Assembly: GCF_946478885.1 (NCBI RefSeq)
Contig: NZ_CAMLDX010000010.1
Span: 1-51,275, forward strand
Length of the DNA: 51,275 nt
Direction of reading: 5' to 3'
Source of the DNA: an uncultured Bacillus sp.
Lineage (GTDB): Bacteria; Bacillota; Bacilli; Bacillales_B; DSM-18226
Shown here: positions 5,945 through 41,519 of the stretch, one piece after another
Position numbering within the stretch: position 1 is the stretch's first letter
Layout of the letters: every line of letters starts with the position of its first letter
The notes under the pieces: model-generated
Told to the model about the DNA's origin: nothing
The model's database searches: none
Seen by the model: only the letters and a program-made list of their open reading frames with translations
Position numbers and translations under genes: made by a program

Positions 5945-6219
5945 AAAGCGTACGGCTGTGATGAAGAGTAGTAGCATTTTTCAACACTACAGAGAGCTGA
6001 TGATTGGTGTAAAATCAGTGTGGGAGAAAATGTGAATGGACTTCGGAGCCTCCAAACCGAACCTTTTTTAAGCAGTAGGCTTTGGCGAACGTCTCATCGT
6101 TACAAGAGACCGATGTTTAAATGATTTTTTGTTTAGATATCTGTAAAGTGAGCTGATTTATCAGCTAATGAAGGTGGCACCACGGGTTTCTCGTCCTTTA
6201 ATGACGAGAGACCCTTTTT
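5945..6219 (+). ncRNA. T-box leader 1 (Trp, UGG specifier) of the trp operon
   Basis: A T-box riboswitch: stem I begins near GATGAAGAGTAGTAG and includes the AGAGAGCTG motif. The specifier loop reads GAA-UGG-A with the codon at 6037-6039. The T-box sequence AAGGTGGCACCACG is at 6171-6184. The competing terminator pairs GGGTTTCTCGTC (6184-6195) with GACGAGAGACCC (6203-6214), followed by five T residues. Uncharged tRNA-Trp should favour read-through. It is followed directly by a second T-box. Confidence 0.9.
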
Positions 6220-6287
6220 GTATTGATACATGATTCATAATTTGAACAATTCCGAAATAGAAATAGATTGAAAAATACATGAAAAAA

Positions 6288-6556
6288 ATTGTTGAGTAAG
6301 AGTAGTACACGATTGGTATTTGTCACAGAGAGCCGGAGAAGCTGTGAACCGGCACAAAACCAGCGTTGGAATGGACTTACGAGAGGCGGCTTGAACCGGT
6401 AGTAGAGCTGCACGGTATTCCTCCGTTATAAGGATAAGGTATACAGTCAATGCTGTAACCGAAAAGAGAGAGCAGTATAGCTCTAATGGAGGTGGCACCG
6501 CGGTAACATAAATCGTCCTCTATTCGCATTATTTCAATGTGAATAGAGGATTTTTT
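6288..6556 (+). ncRNA. T-box leader 2 (Trp, UGG specifier) of the trp operon
   Basis: A second T-box in tandem. Stem I contains AGAGTAGTACACG and CAGAGAGCCGG. The specifier loop reads GAA-UGG-A with the codon at 6372-6374. The T-box GAGGTGGCACCGCGG spans 6489-6503. The terminator pairs TCCTCTATTC (6516-6525) with GAATAGAGGA (6541-6550) and ends in six T residues. trpE starts 26 nt later. I see no convincing promoter between the two leaders, so a single transcript probably passes both. Confidence 0.92.
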
Positions 6557-14404: not shown

Positions 14405-14512
14405 AAATGAATATTCGTTACTCTTCTGTCCTTTTGCCTGAGATTGTGAATCCTTCGGCGCCGTATTTACCCGGTCTCTCCAGAAGCTGCTCCTGCTATA
14501 GTTCCACCCATA
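14405..14512 (-). ncRNA. Glycine riboswitch (single aptamer)
   Basis: Read on the minus strand, the segment contains GGAGCAGCTTCTGGAGAG, then ACCGGG, GGCGCCGAAGG and CTCAGGCAAAAGGACAGA. These are the conserved core blocks of the glycine riboswitch (gcvT motif). Only one aptamer is visible rather than the tandem pair. It is followed by a terminator and then the ACT-domain/UPF0210 operon instead of gcvT. Confidence 0.92.
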
Positions 14513-35734: not shown

Positions 35735-35756
35735 TTAAACAAATGAACGTTCTTCT

Positions 35757-35868
35757 TCTTATCTTTCAAGTCTCAAAACTTGATGGAATTAGCACCTTTT
35801 CAATGTACAAGACATTGATGGTTGCTGAGGTGTCAAAGGGCCATTCCCTCAACCTCTCTGGATAAGAA
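35757..35868 (-). ncRNA. SAM-I riboswitch (S-box)
   Basis: On the minus strand: CTTATCCAGAGAGGTTGAGG, GGAATGGCCCTTTGA, CACCTCAGCAACC, AAGGTGCTAATTCC and the closing GAAAGATAAG. These are the conserved S-box blocks, with P1 pairing CTTATC and GATAAG. It controls metI-metC-yitJ-metH. Confidence 0.95.
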
Positions 35869-36744: not shown

Positions 36745-36948
36745 ATGATACATATAGACTGGCATGAAAGAAAAACGATCAAACAAGTAAAATGCGTACA
36801 TACTCAAGCAAAAAAGTACATTGTCAATAATGTTTTAACACCGGGAAAGTTGTATGATGTAAAAAATGAAACAGAAGAATTTTATTTTATTATTGACAAC
36901 TCAGGAAAAGTTGGGGGATTTTATAAAGATTATTTTATAGAGGAATAA
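36745..36948 (+). CDS. DUF6501-like small protein
   Basis: A 67-residue protein: WHERKTIKQVKCVHT, then a beta-rich LTPGKLYDVKNETEEFYFII and DNSGKVGGFYKDYF. The layout suggests a small SH3-like beta barrel. I associate it with a conserved Bacillaceae family (DUF6501) of unknown function; the name is from memory. The ATG follows AAGGGAG. A promoter-like TTGACA at 36690-36695 lies 17 nt before TAAAGA. It shares a bidirectional terminator with yidC. Confidence 0.7.
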   Translation: MIHIDWHERKTIKQVKCVHTQAKKYIVNNVLTPGKLYDVKNETEEFYFIIDNSGKVGGFYKDYFIEE

Positions 36949-36984
36949 AGATAAACCATAATAATATTATGTAAACTTTCTATT

Positions 36985-37022
36985 AACATCAAAGCTGCTC
37001 TCAAAGGAGCAGCTTTGATGTT
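36985..37022. terminator. Bidirectional terminator between DUF6501-like gene and yidC
   Basis: AACATCAAAGCTGCTC (36985-37000) pairs perfectly with GAGCAGCTTTGATGTT (37007-37022). A T-rich tract (AATTTTTTTG) follows on the plus strand, and the minus side is A/T-rich. Confidence 0.88.
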
Positions 37023-37803
37023 AATTTTTTTGTAAGTTGGGCTTTGAAGCTGTGTTTTTAGACGGATATAACTTACGACCTAAATAGGTTTGAAATATCA
37101 GGAAAGTTCCACCGACTACCCAGTAGAGAGGCAGTGCTGCAGGTGCATTGAGCGAAAACATGACAATCATAATAGGGGAAAGAAGACCCATGTATTTCAT
37201 TTGCTGTTTTTGCTGTTCTGGCATCGTATGCATGGAAACCTGAAATTGAAAATAATAAACGATTCCAGCAAGTGCTGTAATCCATATATCTGATTCTCCA
37301 AGACTGAACCAAAGGAAGGAATGGCTAGCGATTTCCGCTGAATCGCGAATCGCATGATAAAAGGCAAGTAAAATCGGCATTTGAATAATTAAAGGCAAGC
37401 ATCCCATATTCATAGGGTTAACACCATGTTTTGAATAAAGGCCCATCATTTCCATTTGCAATTTTTGTTGCTCTTTTTTGTCTTTCTCCGCTTTTATTTT
37501 CTTCTGTAGTTCATCCATATCCGGTTTTAGAAGATCCATTTTTTCCTTCATCTCTGCCTGACTTTTATATTGCTTCAGCATAAGCGGCAGCAGTATAAGA
37601 CGGACAAGCAATGTGACGAAAATGATGCCTAACCCATAATTATTATTGAAAAGATGAGATGTCCAAATCAGAAGAGAAGTAAAGGGCTCTACGAAATAAG
37701 TATCGAAAAATCCCCCGCTTTTCCCACCATCGGCTGAACAGGCCGATAAGAGGATGGTCATTAAGAATAAAAAGGCTGTTAAAAAGAATTTTTTATTAAT
37801 CAT
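37021..37803 (-). CDS. yidC: Membrane protein insertase YidC (second paralogue type)
   Basis: A 260-residue YidC/Oxa1 insertase. The N-terminus has a lipoprotein signal with lipobox LLSAC (Cys22). Five helices follow: about 40-62, 62-82, 128-150, 170-190 and 210-235. The hydrophilic-groove Arg lies in LLVRLILLPLM (near 66-76), and MGCLPLIIQMPILLAFYHAI and APAALPLYWVVGG are conserved. The preceding 95-codon ORF and the anti-Shine-Dalgarno stem resemble the B. subtilis mifM-yidC2 (yqjG) unit, so this is probably the inducible backup insertase. The SD GGAGG lies about 11 nt from the ATG, inside the predicted stem. Confidence 0.92.
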   Translation of the reverse strand: MINKKFFLTAFLFLMTILLSACSADGGKSGGFFDTYFVEPFTSLLIWTSHLFNNNYGLGIIFVTLLVRLILLPLMLKQYKSQAEMKEKMDLLKPDMDELQKKIKAEKDKKEQQKLQMEMMGLYSKHGVNPMNMGCLPLIIQMPILLAFYHAIRDSAEIASHSFLWFSLGESDIWITALAGIVYYFQFQVSMHTMPEQQKQQMKYMGLLSPIMIVMFSLNAPAALPLYWVVGGTFLIFQTYLGRKLYPSKNTASKPNLQKN

Positions 37804-37809
37804 CTGTTA

Positions 37810-37859
37810 TATTTCCTCCAAAATGCTCAAAAATTAGGTTTAAGTGAAGTGAGGAAATA
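37810..37859 (-). promoter_or_regulatory. Stem-loop sequestering the yidC Shine-Dalgarno
   Basis: On the minus strand TATTTCCTC (37859-37851), inside the last codons of the upstream ORF, is the perfect 9-nt complement of GAGGAAATA (37818-37810), which includes the yidC SD. A 32-nt loop holds the ORF stop codon. A ribosome stalled near the end of the upstream ORF would prevent this stem from forming. Confidence 0.75.
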
Positions 37860-38127
37860 GATGTACCGGGTCATCTCCGGGATTTTCTTTTCTTCTAATA
37901 AATTTAACAATCCATAATAAATGTGGACAAATATTCACTCTTTTCTTCATTTGAATGGATAAATTTTTAGCCTTTATATGGCATTCGGATGATGTTTGTA
38001 AAGTATCAAATAACAAATACTCAAACTTCCAAATCCAGAGCAACCTCAGGGAAAGACTAATCATAAGCGGGATATACAAAGAATAATCAGGTTGAATATT
38101 TGCAGCATCTAGGATAAATTCTACCAA
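37840..38127 (-). CDS. mifM: MifM-like arrest peptide / YidC-activity sensor
   Basis: A 95-residue protein directly upstream of yidC. The N-terminus is acidic (MVEFILDAANIQPD), followed by one hydrophobic segment (about 15-35) and a Lys/Arg-rich tail, predicting N-out/C-in topology. The C-terminus HLLWIVKFIRRK is followed by ENPGDDP. B. subtilis MifM is also 95 residues with one such helix, needs Trp-Ile and nearby residues plus acidic residues for stalling, and controls yidC2 translation (established). The TTG start has GAGGTG 7 nt upstream. Codons for Leu-Phe-Pro near the end form the anti-SD. Homology to MifM is inferred from position, length, topology and RNA architecture, not alignment. 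Confidence 0.75.
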   Translation of the reverse strand: MVEFILDAANIQPDYSLYIPLMISLSLRLLWIWKFEYLLFDTLQTSSECHIKAKNLSIQMKKRVNICPHLLWIVKFIRRKENPGDDPVHLFPHFT

Positions 38128-38285
38128 TGATTTTCACCTCAAAAAACTGATGCGAAGCAATTTAGTAATTCTTTTCATTGTATGTAAACATACAATTGAT
38201 GAAAGTATATATGAAATAGAAGGAATAAGCAATTAATTAAATAAAACAACTATGGTTCATTTTACCAAGCAGTCGGTCTGCAAAT

Positions 38286-38313
38286 TAGACAAGCAGCAAA
38301 ATAAAGCTATAAT
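38286..38313 (+). promoter_or_regulatory. Candidate promoter of pncB-nadE
   Basis: TAGACA (38286-38291) and a perfect TATAAT (38308-38313) are separated by 16 nt. Transcription would start near 38320, right at a hairpin. Confidence 0.55.
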
Positions 38314-38319
38314 AATAAC

Positions 38320-38358
38320 CAAGAGCAACGCCTATAGGCGCTGTCTTAGGCTCTTTTT
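38320..38358 (+). terminator. Leader hairpin / possible attenuator before pncB
   Basis: AAGAGC pairs with GCTCTT, enclosing the palindrome CGCCTATAGGCG, followed by TTTTTT. No plus-strand gene ends nearby, and it lies just after the candidate pncB promoter. It may therefore attenuate pncB-nadE transcription rather than end another gene. Confidence 0.45.
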
Positions 38359-38401
38359 TACATAAAAGTGCAGCATAAAAGCCTTTCAGGGAGGTTTGAC
38401 A

Positions 38402-39883
38402 ATGGAAAAATATGTGGATGATAGTTTAACACTTCACACAGATCTTTATCAGCTAAATATGATGGAAACGTATTGGGAAGACGGGATTCATGATCGTAAA
38501 GCGGTTTTTGAGGTGTATTTTCGAAAAATGCCGTTTGGAAATGGATTTGCCGTGTTTGCAGGCTTAGAAAAGGTGATTGATTATTTAAAAAATTTAAAAT
38601 TTACAGATCAGGACTTAGCTTATTTACATAATGACTTAGGTTATCAGGATGATTTTATTCAATATTTAAAAACAATACGTTTTACCGGGTCACTGCGTTC
38701 AGTGGAAGAGGGTGAGATTGTCTTTGGAAATGAACCCTTACTGAGGATCGAATCTACATTAGCTGAAGCACAATTAGTTGAAACGGCAATCCTAAATATT
38801 GTTAATTACCAAACACTGATAGCAACGAAAGCAGCAAGAATTAAGTATATTATCGGGAATGAAACGGCAATGGAATTCGGCAGTAGAAGAGCGCAGGAAA
38901 TGGATGCTGCAATATGGGGAACAAGAGCTGCGTATATTGGCGGGTTCAGCGCTACTTCAAATGTCAGAGCAGGTAAACTATTTGGAATTCCGGTGTCCGG
39001 GACCCATGCACATTCGCTTATTCAAGCATATCGCGACGAGTATACTGCCTTTCATAAATATGCCCGTCGCCACAAGGATTGTGTCTTTTTAGTCGATACA
39101 TATGATACCCTTCGTTCAGGAGTGCCGAATGCGATTCGAGTGGCAAGAGAATTAGGAGATTCGATTAATTTTATCGGTATACGGCTTGACAGCGGCGACC
39201 TCGCCTATTTATCAAAAGAGGCTCGGATAATGCTTGATGAAGCAGGATTTCCTCATGCCAAAATTGTTGCATCAAATGACCTTGATGAAGAGACCATTTT
39301 AAATTTAAAGTCTCAAGGGGCCAAAATTGATACATGGGGAATCGGGACAAAGCTTATTACCGGATACGATCAGCCGGCATTGGGGGCAGTTTACAAACTG
39401 GTCTCTATTGAAGATGAGCAAGGAAACATGATAGACACGATTAAAATCAGCGGCAATCCTGAAAAGGTTTCAACTCCGGGTTTAAAGAACGTCTACCGAA
39501 TCATTAATCCGGCAAATCAGAAAATGGAGGGTGATTATATCACACTTCATGATGAGAATCCGAATGAAGAAGAACAACTGCATATGTTTCATCCGGTTCA
39601 TACTTATATTAGTAAAACGGTAACGAATTTTGAAGCAAAGGAACTTCATCGGGACATCTTTACTAATGGTAAATTAGTATATCATTTACCGTCACTCCCG
39701 GATATTCAATCCTTCTGCCGGAAAAATCTCAATTATTTGTGGGATGAGTATAAGCGATCATTAAATCCGGCTGAATATCCAGTGGATTTAAGTCCGAAAT
39801 GTTGGGAAAATAAACGGAGAAACATTGAATTGGTACAGCAACAGGTTAAACAGCAATTAAAAACAATCAATGTCAAATTTTAA
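38402..39883 (+). CDS. pncB: Nicotinate phosphoribosyltransferase
   Basis: Converts nicotinate and PRPP to nicotinate mononucleotide in NAD salvage; 493 residues, the long bacterial form. It begins SLTLHTDLYQLNMMETYW. Active-site segments include EFGSRRAQEMDAA, GTHAHSLIQAY with the autophosphorylated His environment, RLDSGDLAYLSKEAR, SNDLDEETI and DTWGIGTKLITGYDQPALG. The start ATG at 38402 has AGGGAGG 7 nt upstream; an in-frame TTG at 38396 would be too close. nadE follows 18 bp later, a salvage-to-NAD operon. Confidence 0.95.
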   Translation: MEKYVDDSLTLHTDLYQLNMMETYWEDGIHDRKAVFEVYFRKMPFGNGFAVFAGLEKVIDYLKNLKFTDQDLAYLHNDLGYQDDFIQYLKTIRFTGSLRSVEEGEIVFGNEPLLRIESTLAEAQLVETAILNIVNYQTLIATKAARIKYIIGNETAMEFGSRRAQEMDAAIWGTRAAYIGGFSATSNVRAGKLFGIPVSGTHAHSLIQAYRDEYTAFHKYARRHKDCVFLVDTYDTLRSGVPNAIRVARELGDSINFIGIRLDSGDLAYLSKEARIMLDEAGFPHAKIVASNDLDEETILNLKSQGAKIDTWGIGTKLITGYDQPALGAVYKLVSIEDEQGNMIDTIKISGNPEKVSTPGLKNVYRIINPANQKMEGDYITLHDENPNEEEQLHMFHPVHTYISKTVTNFEAKELHRDIFTNGKLVYHLPSLPDIQSFCRKNLNYLWDEYKRSLNPAEYPVDLSPKCWENKRRNIELVQQQVKQQLKTINVKF

Positions 39884-39901
39884 AAAGAAGGAAGGATCTA
39901 T

Positions 39902-40723
39902 GTGAAGCTGCAAGAGAAAATTATGAAGGATTTACATATCCAGCCTATCATAAATGCGAAAGAAGAAGTTAGAAAGCGAATCAATTTTTTAAAGGAATAT
40001 TTATTAATGACAAAGGGTGCCGGCTATGTATTGGGAATCAGCGGCGGTCAGGATTCATCACTCGCAGGCAGGTTGGCTCAATTATCGGTAGAAGAGCTGA
40101 GGGCTGAAGGGTATGAAGCTAAATTTGTTGCTGTCAGGCTGCCATACGGAATTCAAACGGATGAAGCAGATGCCCAAATAGCGTTATCGTTTATTCGAGC
40201 TGATTATGAATATACATTTAATATCGCTAAAGCTGTTGATTCTGTAAAAGAAGAATACGATAAACAGATGAAGGATGCTCCTTTAAGGGATTACCATAAA
40301 GGGAATGTTAAGGCAAGGATGAGGATGATAGCCCAGTATGCAATTGGAGGGCAGGACAATCTTCTTGTGATAGGAACAGACCATGCTGCAGAAGCAGTCT
40401 CGGGTTTTTATACTAAATATGGAGATGGGGGAGCCGATATTCTCCCGTTATCAGGTCTTACAAAACGTCAGGGAAAACAATTATTGCAGGAATTGGGCGC
40501 TGACGAAAGCCTTTATTTAAAGATTCCTACAGCTGATTTATTGGATCAGAAGCCGGGACAAGCGGATGAAACGGAGCTAGGAATTTCTTATGAAGAACTA
40601 GATGATTATTTAGAGGGTAAAAGGGTATCTCCGGAAATCGCAGAGAAAATCGAACGGAGATATGCCACAACAGAGCATAAACGTCAAATGCCGGCCACAA
40701 TGTTTGACGAGTGGTGGAAGTAA
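39902..40723 (+). CDS. nadE: NH3-dependent NAD+ synthetase
   Basis: Amidates deamido-NAD to NAD using ammonia and ATP. It is 273 residues without a glutaminase domain, so it is the ammonia-dependent short form. The PP-loop is [14 protein letters not shown] (near 44-57). [33 protein letters not shown] and [15 protein letters not shown] are conserved, as is [15 protein letters not shown] at the C-terminus. The GTG start has AAGGAAGGA upstream. It forms an operon with pncB and ends at a bidirectional terminator shared with pflA. Confidence 0.96.
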
Positions 40724-40737
40724 GATTATACATGCAG

Positions 40738-40774
40738 AAAAAAGCGTGCTGTCAGATTTTGACTGCACGCTTTT
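40738..40774. terminator. Bidirectional terminator between nadE and pflA
   Basis: AAAAAAGCGTGC pairs with GCACGCTTTT, with T/A tracts on both sides. The pflA stop codon lies inside the hairpin. Confidence 0.88.
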
Positions 40775-41519
40775 CATCTTCCATAAAAGTAACGCTTTTG
40801 GTTAAAATTTTATATGCTTCCGCCACCTGTTCATCACTAGGAGGTTCAATACCTTGAAGAGGATATTCATGTCCAAGTGCTTCCCATTTGTATACTCCAA
40901 GTTTATGGTAAGGCAGTATTTCAACCTTTTTGATATTTCTTAAAGTTCCGATAAAGTCTCCGAGCTGATGTAAATCTGCAGGATCATCTGTCACGGTAGG
41001 GACAAGGACATGACGAATCCAAACAGGGAGTTGAATATTTGATAGGTATCGGGCAAATTCCAAAATATGGTCATTGGCCATACCTGTTAAGCGGATATGT
41101 TTTTGCCGATTAAAGTGTTTTAAATCAAGTAAGATTAAGTCAGTATATTTCAATACTTCCTTTAATTGCTCCTGGAATAAGGGTGCTGTAGAAAAACAGC
41201 CACCGGAGGAATCAATGGTTGTATGAATTCCAGCTTTCTTACATTCTTTGAAAAGCTCCAGTAAAAAGGGCAGTTGTAATAGAGGCTCTCCACCGCTTAC
41301 AGTAATGCCGCCGCCAGACGCTTCAATAAAAGGGAGGTAAGTAAGTAAGTCCTGCATAATTTCATCGACAGACATTGATTTTCCTTTACCAAGCTCCCAA
41401 GTATCCGCATTGTGGCAAAATTGGCAGCGAAGAAGACATCCTTGTGTGAAAATGACAAATCGTATGCCGGGTCCATCAACAGTACCAAAGGTTTCGATGG
41501 AATGTATATTACCATTCAT
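40752..41519 (-). CDS. pflA: Pyruvate formate-lyase-activating enzyme
   Basis: A radical-SAM enzyme that installs the glycyl radical in PflB anaerobically. It is 255 residues. The [4Fe-4S] motif CLLRCQFCHN follows the N-terminal ETFGTVDGPGIRFVIFTQG. ISGGEPLLQ-type (VSGGEPLLQLPFL) and TIDSSGG segments bind SAM. LDLKHFN and RHVLVPTVTDD are typical. The ATG has GGGAG upstream. It follows pflB in the same direction, about 106 bp away with a hairpin between, which suggests lower expression than pflB. Confidence 0.95.
   Translation of the reverse strand: MNGNIHSIETFGTVDGPGIRFVIFTQGCLLRCQFCHNADTWELGKGKSMSVDEIMQDLLTYLPFIEASGGGITVSGGEPLLQLPFLLELFKECKKAGIHTTIDSSGGCFSTAPLFQEQLKEVLKYTDLILLDLKHFNRQKHIRLTGMANDHILEFARYLSNIQLPVWIRHVLVPTVTDDPADLHQLGDFIGTLRNIKKVEILPYHKLGVYKWEALGHEYPLQGIEPPSDEQVAEAYKILTKSVTFMEDEKRAVKI

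Follow-up and report, generated by a model that had tools for sequence, protein, structure and literature searches.

A MifM-like leader with a reduced acidic cluster upstream of yidC in an uncultured Bacillus sp.

The yidC locus and its leader

The DNA analyzed here, called the window, is a stretch of 51,275 nucleotides from an uncultured Bacillus sp. (contig NZ_CAMLDX010000010.1). Its minus strand carries a yidC gene (37021..37803) encoding an insertase of 260 residues, assigned to the YidC2 type from a Pfam match (60KD_IMP, E=1.9e-46), PDB relatives and a tree. The best solved relatives, 3wo6_A and 3wo7_A, are entitled 'Membrane protein insertase YidC 2', and the NCBIfam SpoIIIJ model scores the protein at 241 bits, under its cut-off of 377. 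The window YidC joins a group of leader-bearing copies, those of Neobacillus among them, at a fork whose support (94/89) falls slightly short of the level starred by the tree tool, and it lies outside the single clade (100/100) formed by the second YidC copies. Exactly two YidC matches were obtained in each of 8/8 relatives' genomes searched, which were hand-picked from leader loci, and at the one second-copy locus checked with Pfam (L077) the neighbors are RnpA and Jag. By analogy, we infer that the source organism carries another yidC. A 20-pair hairpin (36982..37025) overlaps the yidC stop; it is terminator-like, with a T run, on the plus strand only, and no terminator-like form was found by the scan on the minus strand of yidC.

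Directly upstream of yidC, on the same strand, lies a leader ORF of 95 codons with a TTG start (37840..38127, minus), recognized by ORF call, HMM and a homologue, P0002. The initial annotation had proposed such an ORF, and its interval, 37801-38127, does contain the leader; it further extends across the gap between the two genes to the ATG of yidC (37803-37801). The leader stop and the ATG are separated by 36 nt (37804..37839, minus), in which the yidC Shine-Dalgarno (SD) sequence GGAGG occupies 37815-37819, 11 nt before the ATG. The acidic N-terminus and basic C-terminal tail read earlier were both recovered, with a net charge of -3 over residues 1-15 and +6 over residues 61-82. A membrane-spanning segment is predicted at codons 17-35 (38023..38079, minus) by hydropathy alone, this being the best 19-residue stretch, with a modest peak (mean 1.38).

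The protein search returned P0002 (94 aa, 62% identical) as the sole homologue besides the window's own ORF. The 95-aa leader matched nothing in Pfam or NCBIfam (E up to 1) or among PDB sequences (E up to 10), and Rfam gave no match at the leader that reached a gathering score, a permissive scan giving sub-threshold matches only, at the 3' hairpin. A motif scan produced a weak promoter-like match, TTTACA-18-TAAATT (9/12), at 38159..38188 (minus). The region 36900-38420 holds 9 promoter-like sites vs 6.2 (sd 2.1) in shuffles, which is not significant, and no promoter could be assigned.

Distribution and selection of yidC leaders

A scan of genome contigs using YidC only yielded 68 loci, 51 of them in Bacillales (L001-L051), and a leader was found directly upstream of yidC at 45 of these 51. 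The six leaderless loci (L029, L046-L050) comprise two from Rummeliibacillus and four from Mammaliicoccus. Among them, L029, L046, L048 and L050 form one clade of the YidC tree (98/94), adjoining leader-bearing Lederbergia-type copies, and the placement of Rummeliibacillus and Mammaliicoccus in the tree is consistent with leader loss.

A 31-row leader profile (A1) was also run against 299 genomes of the order and gave matches in 106 at E<=0.1. Fifty of these places were examined, 30 among the matches listed and 20 picked from the remainder, weak ones included. YidC lay downstream at 49/50, a figure that carries a mild circularity, as these loci (L085-L134) were found with a profile containing the window, whereas L001-L051 were found by YidC only. 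The weak matches L115-L117 (E 0.02-0.03) read RITTWISKVIRMKRSSNDDEDH, and a genus-level search started from L115 gave matches in 44/44 genomes.

The leader set was assembled from 101 loci examined, some genomes being reached twice; 92 were kept and, with the window, make 93. Those left out are L029, L046-L050, L108 and L123, without a leader by the script rule, and L097, without YidC in the stretch; L123 was excluded by this rule although an ORF had been listed there. Leaders sharing the reading frame of yidC are intact ORFs with ATG, GTG or TTG starts. In 16/16 leader pairs, picked among relatives and not including the window, dN/dS was 0.05-0.44. Since the ratio is below 0.5 in every pair, this class of ORF is coding, and the relatives' leaders evolve under purifying selection.

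Departures from this arrangement were seen as well. With yidC starts assigned by a script scoring SD sites, the leader overruns the assigned start by 4-55 nt in 8/93 pairs (L032, L033, L034, L038, L041, L104, L122 and L131), five of them from Paenibacillus, and the yidC SD therefore falls inside the leader. Six of these pairs were folded, and the SD is still in a hairpin; total energies per 120 nt range from -22 to -38 kcal/mol, computed without a shuffle control. Completing such a leader would drive the ribosome across the yidC start, which amounts to a different architecture. The Macrococcus-type leaders L043 and L044 (2689-2967) are strongly diverged and hold the same position before yidC; L043 reads WRIKCLSKMSDEVEAAPIY.

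Relation to MifM and other yidC leaders

Kinship with MifM was assessed using our own HMM, trained on 61 leaders of the family that included neither the window nor the B. subtilis group. This model found the window ORF at E=1.5e-18 among 165 window ORFs, the next best reaching 0.094. Applied to 19 B. subtilis-group loci with 158 ORFs in all, it ranked the 19 MifM ORFs ahead of every other one, with E values between 9.1e-11 and 1.7e-6, the best non-MifM ORF having E=0.074. Profile-profile comparison by hhalign of the window leader plus P0002 against the B. subtilis group gave a gapless alignment limited to the last 24 columns, with E=5.1e-5 and a probability of 67%, and E=2.1e-4 and 46% with a wider group. 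The identity with MifM, first drawn from architecture, thus acquires a sequence link through the HMM, which ranks both the window ORF and the known MifM ORFs at the top, and through hhalign, and its stem is supported family-wide (below). The motif published for MifM, taken as given in the available text of PMC7897499, is RIxxWIxxxxxMNxxxx with four acids after it, and it occurs in 8/16 loci read (13 fetched plus L152-L154). Locus L162, which has the full published motif, reads RITTWIRKVFRMNSPVNDEEDAG and scores E=1.7e-6 with the HMM.

MifM of B. subtilis and the window leader have in common a length of 95 codons, a YidC2-type target and, by prediction for the window, an N-terminal hydrophobic segment and an SD-masking stem. 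In the catalogue of Fujiwara et al. 2024 (PMC10987492), as far as its available text goes, MifM-type uORFs amount to 572 sequences in 592 Firmicutes genomes, and since MifM is already catalogued so widely the window leader would be no new type of system. That catalogue required an N-terminal localisation signal or TM segment followed by at least 30 soluble residues. Like the members of its MifM cluster, the window leader is a Firmicutes yidC uORF in which residues 70-100 include an acidic stretch, and it has the layout of the class, a small same-strand uORF directly upstream of yidC (95 codons, 36 nt). For the acidic stretch, the local charge in this region had to fall below -0.3 when taken over 5 residues; the window leader reaches -0.4 in five such stretches starting at residues 81-85, by a simple count of K/R minus D/E as against the R package used by those authors.

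A monitoring leader of separate origin, CliM-like or ApcA-like, could also have converged on this place and size. ApcA has a different arrest sequence. It comes from Actinobacteria and resembles the window leader, where a TM segment is predicted here, in being a yidC uORF with such a segment, whereas the predictions reported in the available text of PMC7897499 showed no SD-masking hairpin for ApcA. CliM of Clostridia, as described in the accessible part of PMC13183943, is likewise a yidC uORF with a TM segment and a C-terminal arrest (predicted in the window), and mRNA structure limits yidC2 there, as computed for the window; its arrest sequence is, per the authors, unrelated to that of MifM. 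In favor of such an origin, three yidC-associated arrest peptides are known, of which CliM has no sequence relationship to MifM according to the same source. Against it, true MifM ORFs score E 1.7e-6 or lower with the HMM, and the C-terminal alignment is gapless. A separate origin is very improbable.

The anti-Shine-Dalgarno stem

The initial annotation had noted an anti-SD in the Leu-Phe-Pro codons near the leader stop. This element, TATTTCCTC, lies at 37851..37859 (minus), inside codons 90-93 (L90-F91-P92-H93), and was located by complement search and folding. It is perfectly complementary to GAGGAAATA at the yidC SD and, at 9 nt, the longest leader complement to yidC -25..+3. In the predicted stem-loop (37801..37863, minus), AUUUCCUC pairs with GAGGAAAU, which holds the SD, and CAUCU pairs with AGAUG, which includes the yidC start codon. 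Folding of the RNA 37790-37871, within the region for which the fold had been proposed (37780-37880), gave an MFE of -14.7 kcal/mol (z=-2.57) with SD and AUG paired, and 4/200 dinucleotide shuffles did equally well.

At this single site the statistics do not strongly exceed chance. The 9-nt complement was reached in 1531/20000 synonymous shuffles vs 84/20000 base shuffles, and the synonymous-codon fold test of the window alone gave p=0.033 for energy and p=0.057 for SD-leader pairing. The first of these counts would suit an ORF, and an anti-SD within it, that had both arisen by chance. That reading is refuted by homologues in the same place at 45/51 loci, by dN/dS below 0.5 in 16/16 relatives' pairs and by the HMM match at E=1.5e-18, and we give it next to no credence.

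Support for the stem comes from the family-wide result more than from this single site. The test set was obtained by removing the 8 leaders that overlap yidC, along with 2 for which no SD was recognised, and dereplicating at 70% identity, which left 55 leaders; the peptide was held fixed and synonymous codons were shuffled 300 times. SD-leader pairing averaged 0.85 vs 0.56 in the shuffles (Wilcoxon p=2.6e-9), and fold energy averaged -18.3 vs -13.2 kcal/mol (Wilcoxon p=2.4e-10), both p values being optimistic because the leaders share kinship. Individually, 30/55 leaders reached p<0.05 on energy and 18/55 on SD-leader pairing. Leaders across the family favor codons that hide the yidC SD. Moreover, 11 other leaders among the 93 carry TATTTCCT close to their end, every one in a frame differing from that of the window. 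It is therefore nucleotides and not residues that recur, and the anti-SD is seen to return across different reading frames.

Divergence of the arrest region

By HMM and hhalign, codons 72-91 (37855..37914, minus), which read WIVKFIRRKENPGDDPVHLF, align with the arrest sequence of MifM. In this alignment B. subtilis W73, I74, K76, R79, D86 and E87 correspond to window W72, I73, K75, R78, D85 and D86, E87 being matched as an acid, and B. subtilis R69, I70, M80, N81, E88 and D89 correspond to P68, H69, R79, K80, P87 and V88. The two tails thus agree without gaps at W73, I74, R79, D86 and E87 and differ at R69, I70, M80 and N81, in DDPV for DEED, and in the TTG start. The narrow B. subtilis arrest sequence RIXXWIXXXXXMNXXXXDEED is accordingly absent from the window leader, which keeps its W, its I and two acids and lacks R69, I70, M80, N81, E88 and D89. 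Of the diverged arrest motif suggested earlier, the register proved correct (W72-I73, R78, D85-D86), while several residues mapped as critical in B. subtilis are replaced.

Mapped critical residues of MifM are R69, I70, W73, I74, M80, N81 and DEED, and changes to several acids are needed to abolish stalling, according to the available text of PMC4423224. The same text names E87 as the residue at U2506, whose counterpart in the window is D86. The part of PMC6037786 at hand assigns the key contact to Glu88, the counterpart of which is a proline, P87. The acids of the window leader were compared with those of 67 leaders (dereplicated at 85%, L027 and L128 left out). No 4 consecutive residues of it contain more than 2 acids, which puts it in the lowest class (9/67 leaders), and with 3 in any 6 residues it resembles 23/67.

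Among 63 dereplicated leaders, a set that retains one B. subtilis-group member with the MN-bearing B. subtilis-group loci lying outside it, RMN occurs in 0/63 and three consecutive basic or near-basic tail residues in 48/63; the family therefore does not require MN. Past residue 60, 30/63 have a W with I, L, M or F as the next residue, so W73 itself is not universal. The M80-N81 form of B. subtilis is, to judge from these leaders, one local variant. Within the B. subtilis group, 8 of 18 sequences (L165 left out) have MN and four acids, and 10 have MK and DDED; for the latter reason a strict DEED was set aside as a membership test.

Such divergence could mean that the leader has lost its arrest and serves in translational coupling only, with passing ribosomes opening the SD stem and a peptide that no longer stalls. 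The replacement of DEED by DDPV and of R69, I70, M80 and N81 speaks for this, as does the available text of PMC13183943, according to which no residues other than acidic ones support MifM stalling in that region. However, the pattern WI....RRKE.PG.DP.H is retained in P0002 at 62% overall identity, W, I and R79 persist along with the D86-E87 pair, and the family at large shows no requirement for MN (RMN in 0/63, the basic tail run in 48/63). Coupling without arrest is accordingly rated unlikely.

Proposed mechanism

Taken with its relatives, the window leader looks like a diverged member of the MifM family and not like a system of a new kind, and it is very probably a MifM-family monitoring substrate that controls yidC. 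In the computed mRNA fold, leader codons 89-93 cover the yidC SD and start codon. The acidic N-terminus and single hydrophobic segment suggest that the nascent leader enters the membrane by the YidC route, and residues near W72-I73, R78 and D85-D86, by alignment, would arrest elongation from within the exit tunnel and the peptidyl-transferase center, the places taken by W73-I74, R79 and D86-E87 in B. subtilis. When insertion works, pull on the chain would free the ribosome, the leader would be finished, the stem would refold and yidC would stay low. When insertion fails, the ribosome would be held near codons 88-89, masking the anti-SD, and yidC would be made. Counting against this explanation are the four replaced critical residues, DDPV in place of DEED with its low count of acids, the modest hydropathy peak, the p values of the stem at the window alone, hhalign probabilities of only 46% and 67%, and re-pairing of the AUG in the footprint model.

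To place the stall, opening of the stem was computed with a footprint model in which the ribosome covers 15 nt past the first base of the P-site codon. The unpaired probability of the SD was 0.17 at codons 76-86, 0.12 at 87, 0.34 at 88 and 0.61 at 89, and stayed at 0.50-0.62 across 89-94. The window thus has, by computation, an SD-masking stem that a stalled ribosome would open, with the AUG partly re-paired while the SD is open (unpaired about 0.3 at codons 89-93). B. subtilis MifM stalls mainly at codons 89-92, according to the available text of PMC6037786, which is 88-91 in window numbering. With D85-D86 alone, an acid would stand at the E87-equivalent place relative to P-site D89 only with codons 87-88 in the P site. 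The effective stall is predicted from the model at about codons 88-89.

A tentative and rather doubtful extension is that the window leader, in which D85-D86 is what remains of DEED and R79/K80 replace M80/N81, is a natural reduced MifM, which may stall at one to three codons (about 87-89) and not at four consecutive ones, by way of different contacts at the tunnel constriction. If so, the trigger of the sensor would be narrower, because acid-permitted stalling and SD opening overlap only at about codons 88-89. The new point is this reduced acidic cluster, DDPV, and the narrowing of the effective stall predicted from it; a narrow literature check found no published account of a DDPV-type MifM variant. 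Natural leader variants of this kind offer material for asking which contacts MifM-type arrest requires, and a reading first made from unaided sequence is now backed by tests of homology and selection.

Gene neighborhood

Between the leader and what we take to be a pyruvate-formate-lyase-activating gene, the window carries on the opposite strand a presumed pair of nicotinate phosphoribosyltransferase-like and NAD synthetase-like genes (38396-41519). At L007, L020, L021 and L025 a gene that we likewise assume to be pyruvate-formate-lyase-activating-like ends shortly before the leader. Elsewhere in the window, two tandem T-box leaders (5949-6523; 140 and 126 bits) are followed by genes that we take to be trpE, trpG, trpD, trpC and trpF, and a SAM riboswitch (35756-35868, minus) precedes a run of genes presumably of the methionine pathway. 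A single glycine riboswitch aptamer lies at 14416-14493 on the minus strand.
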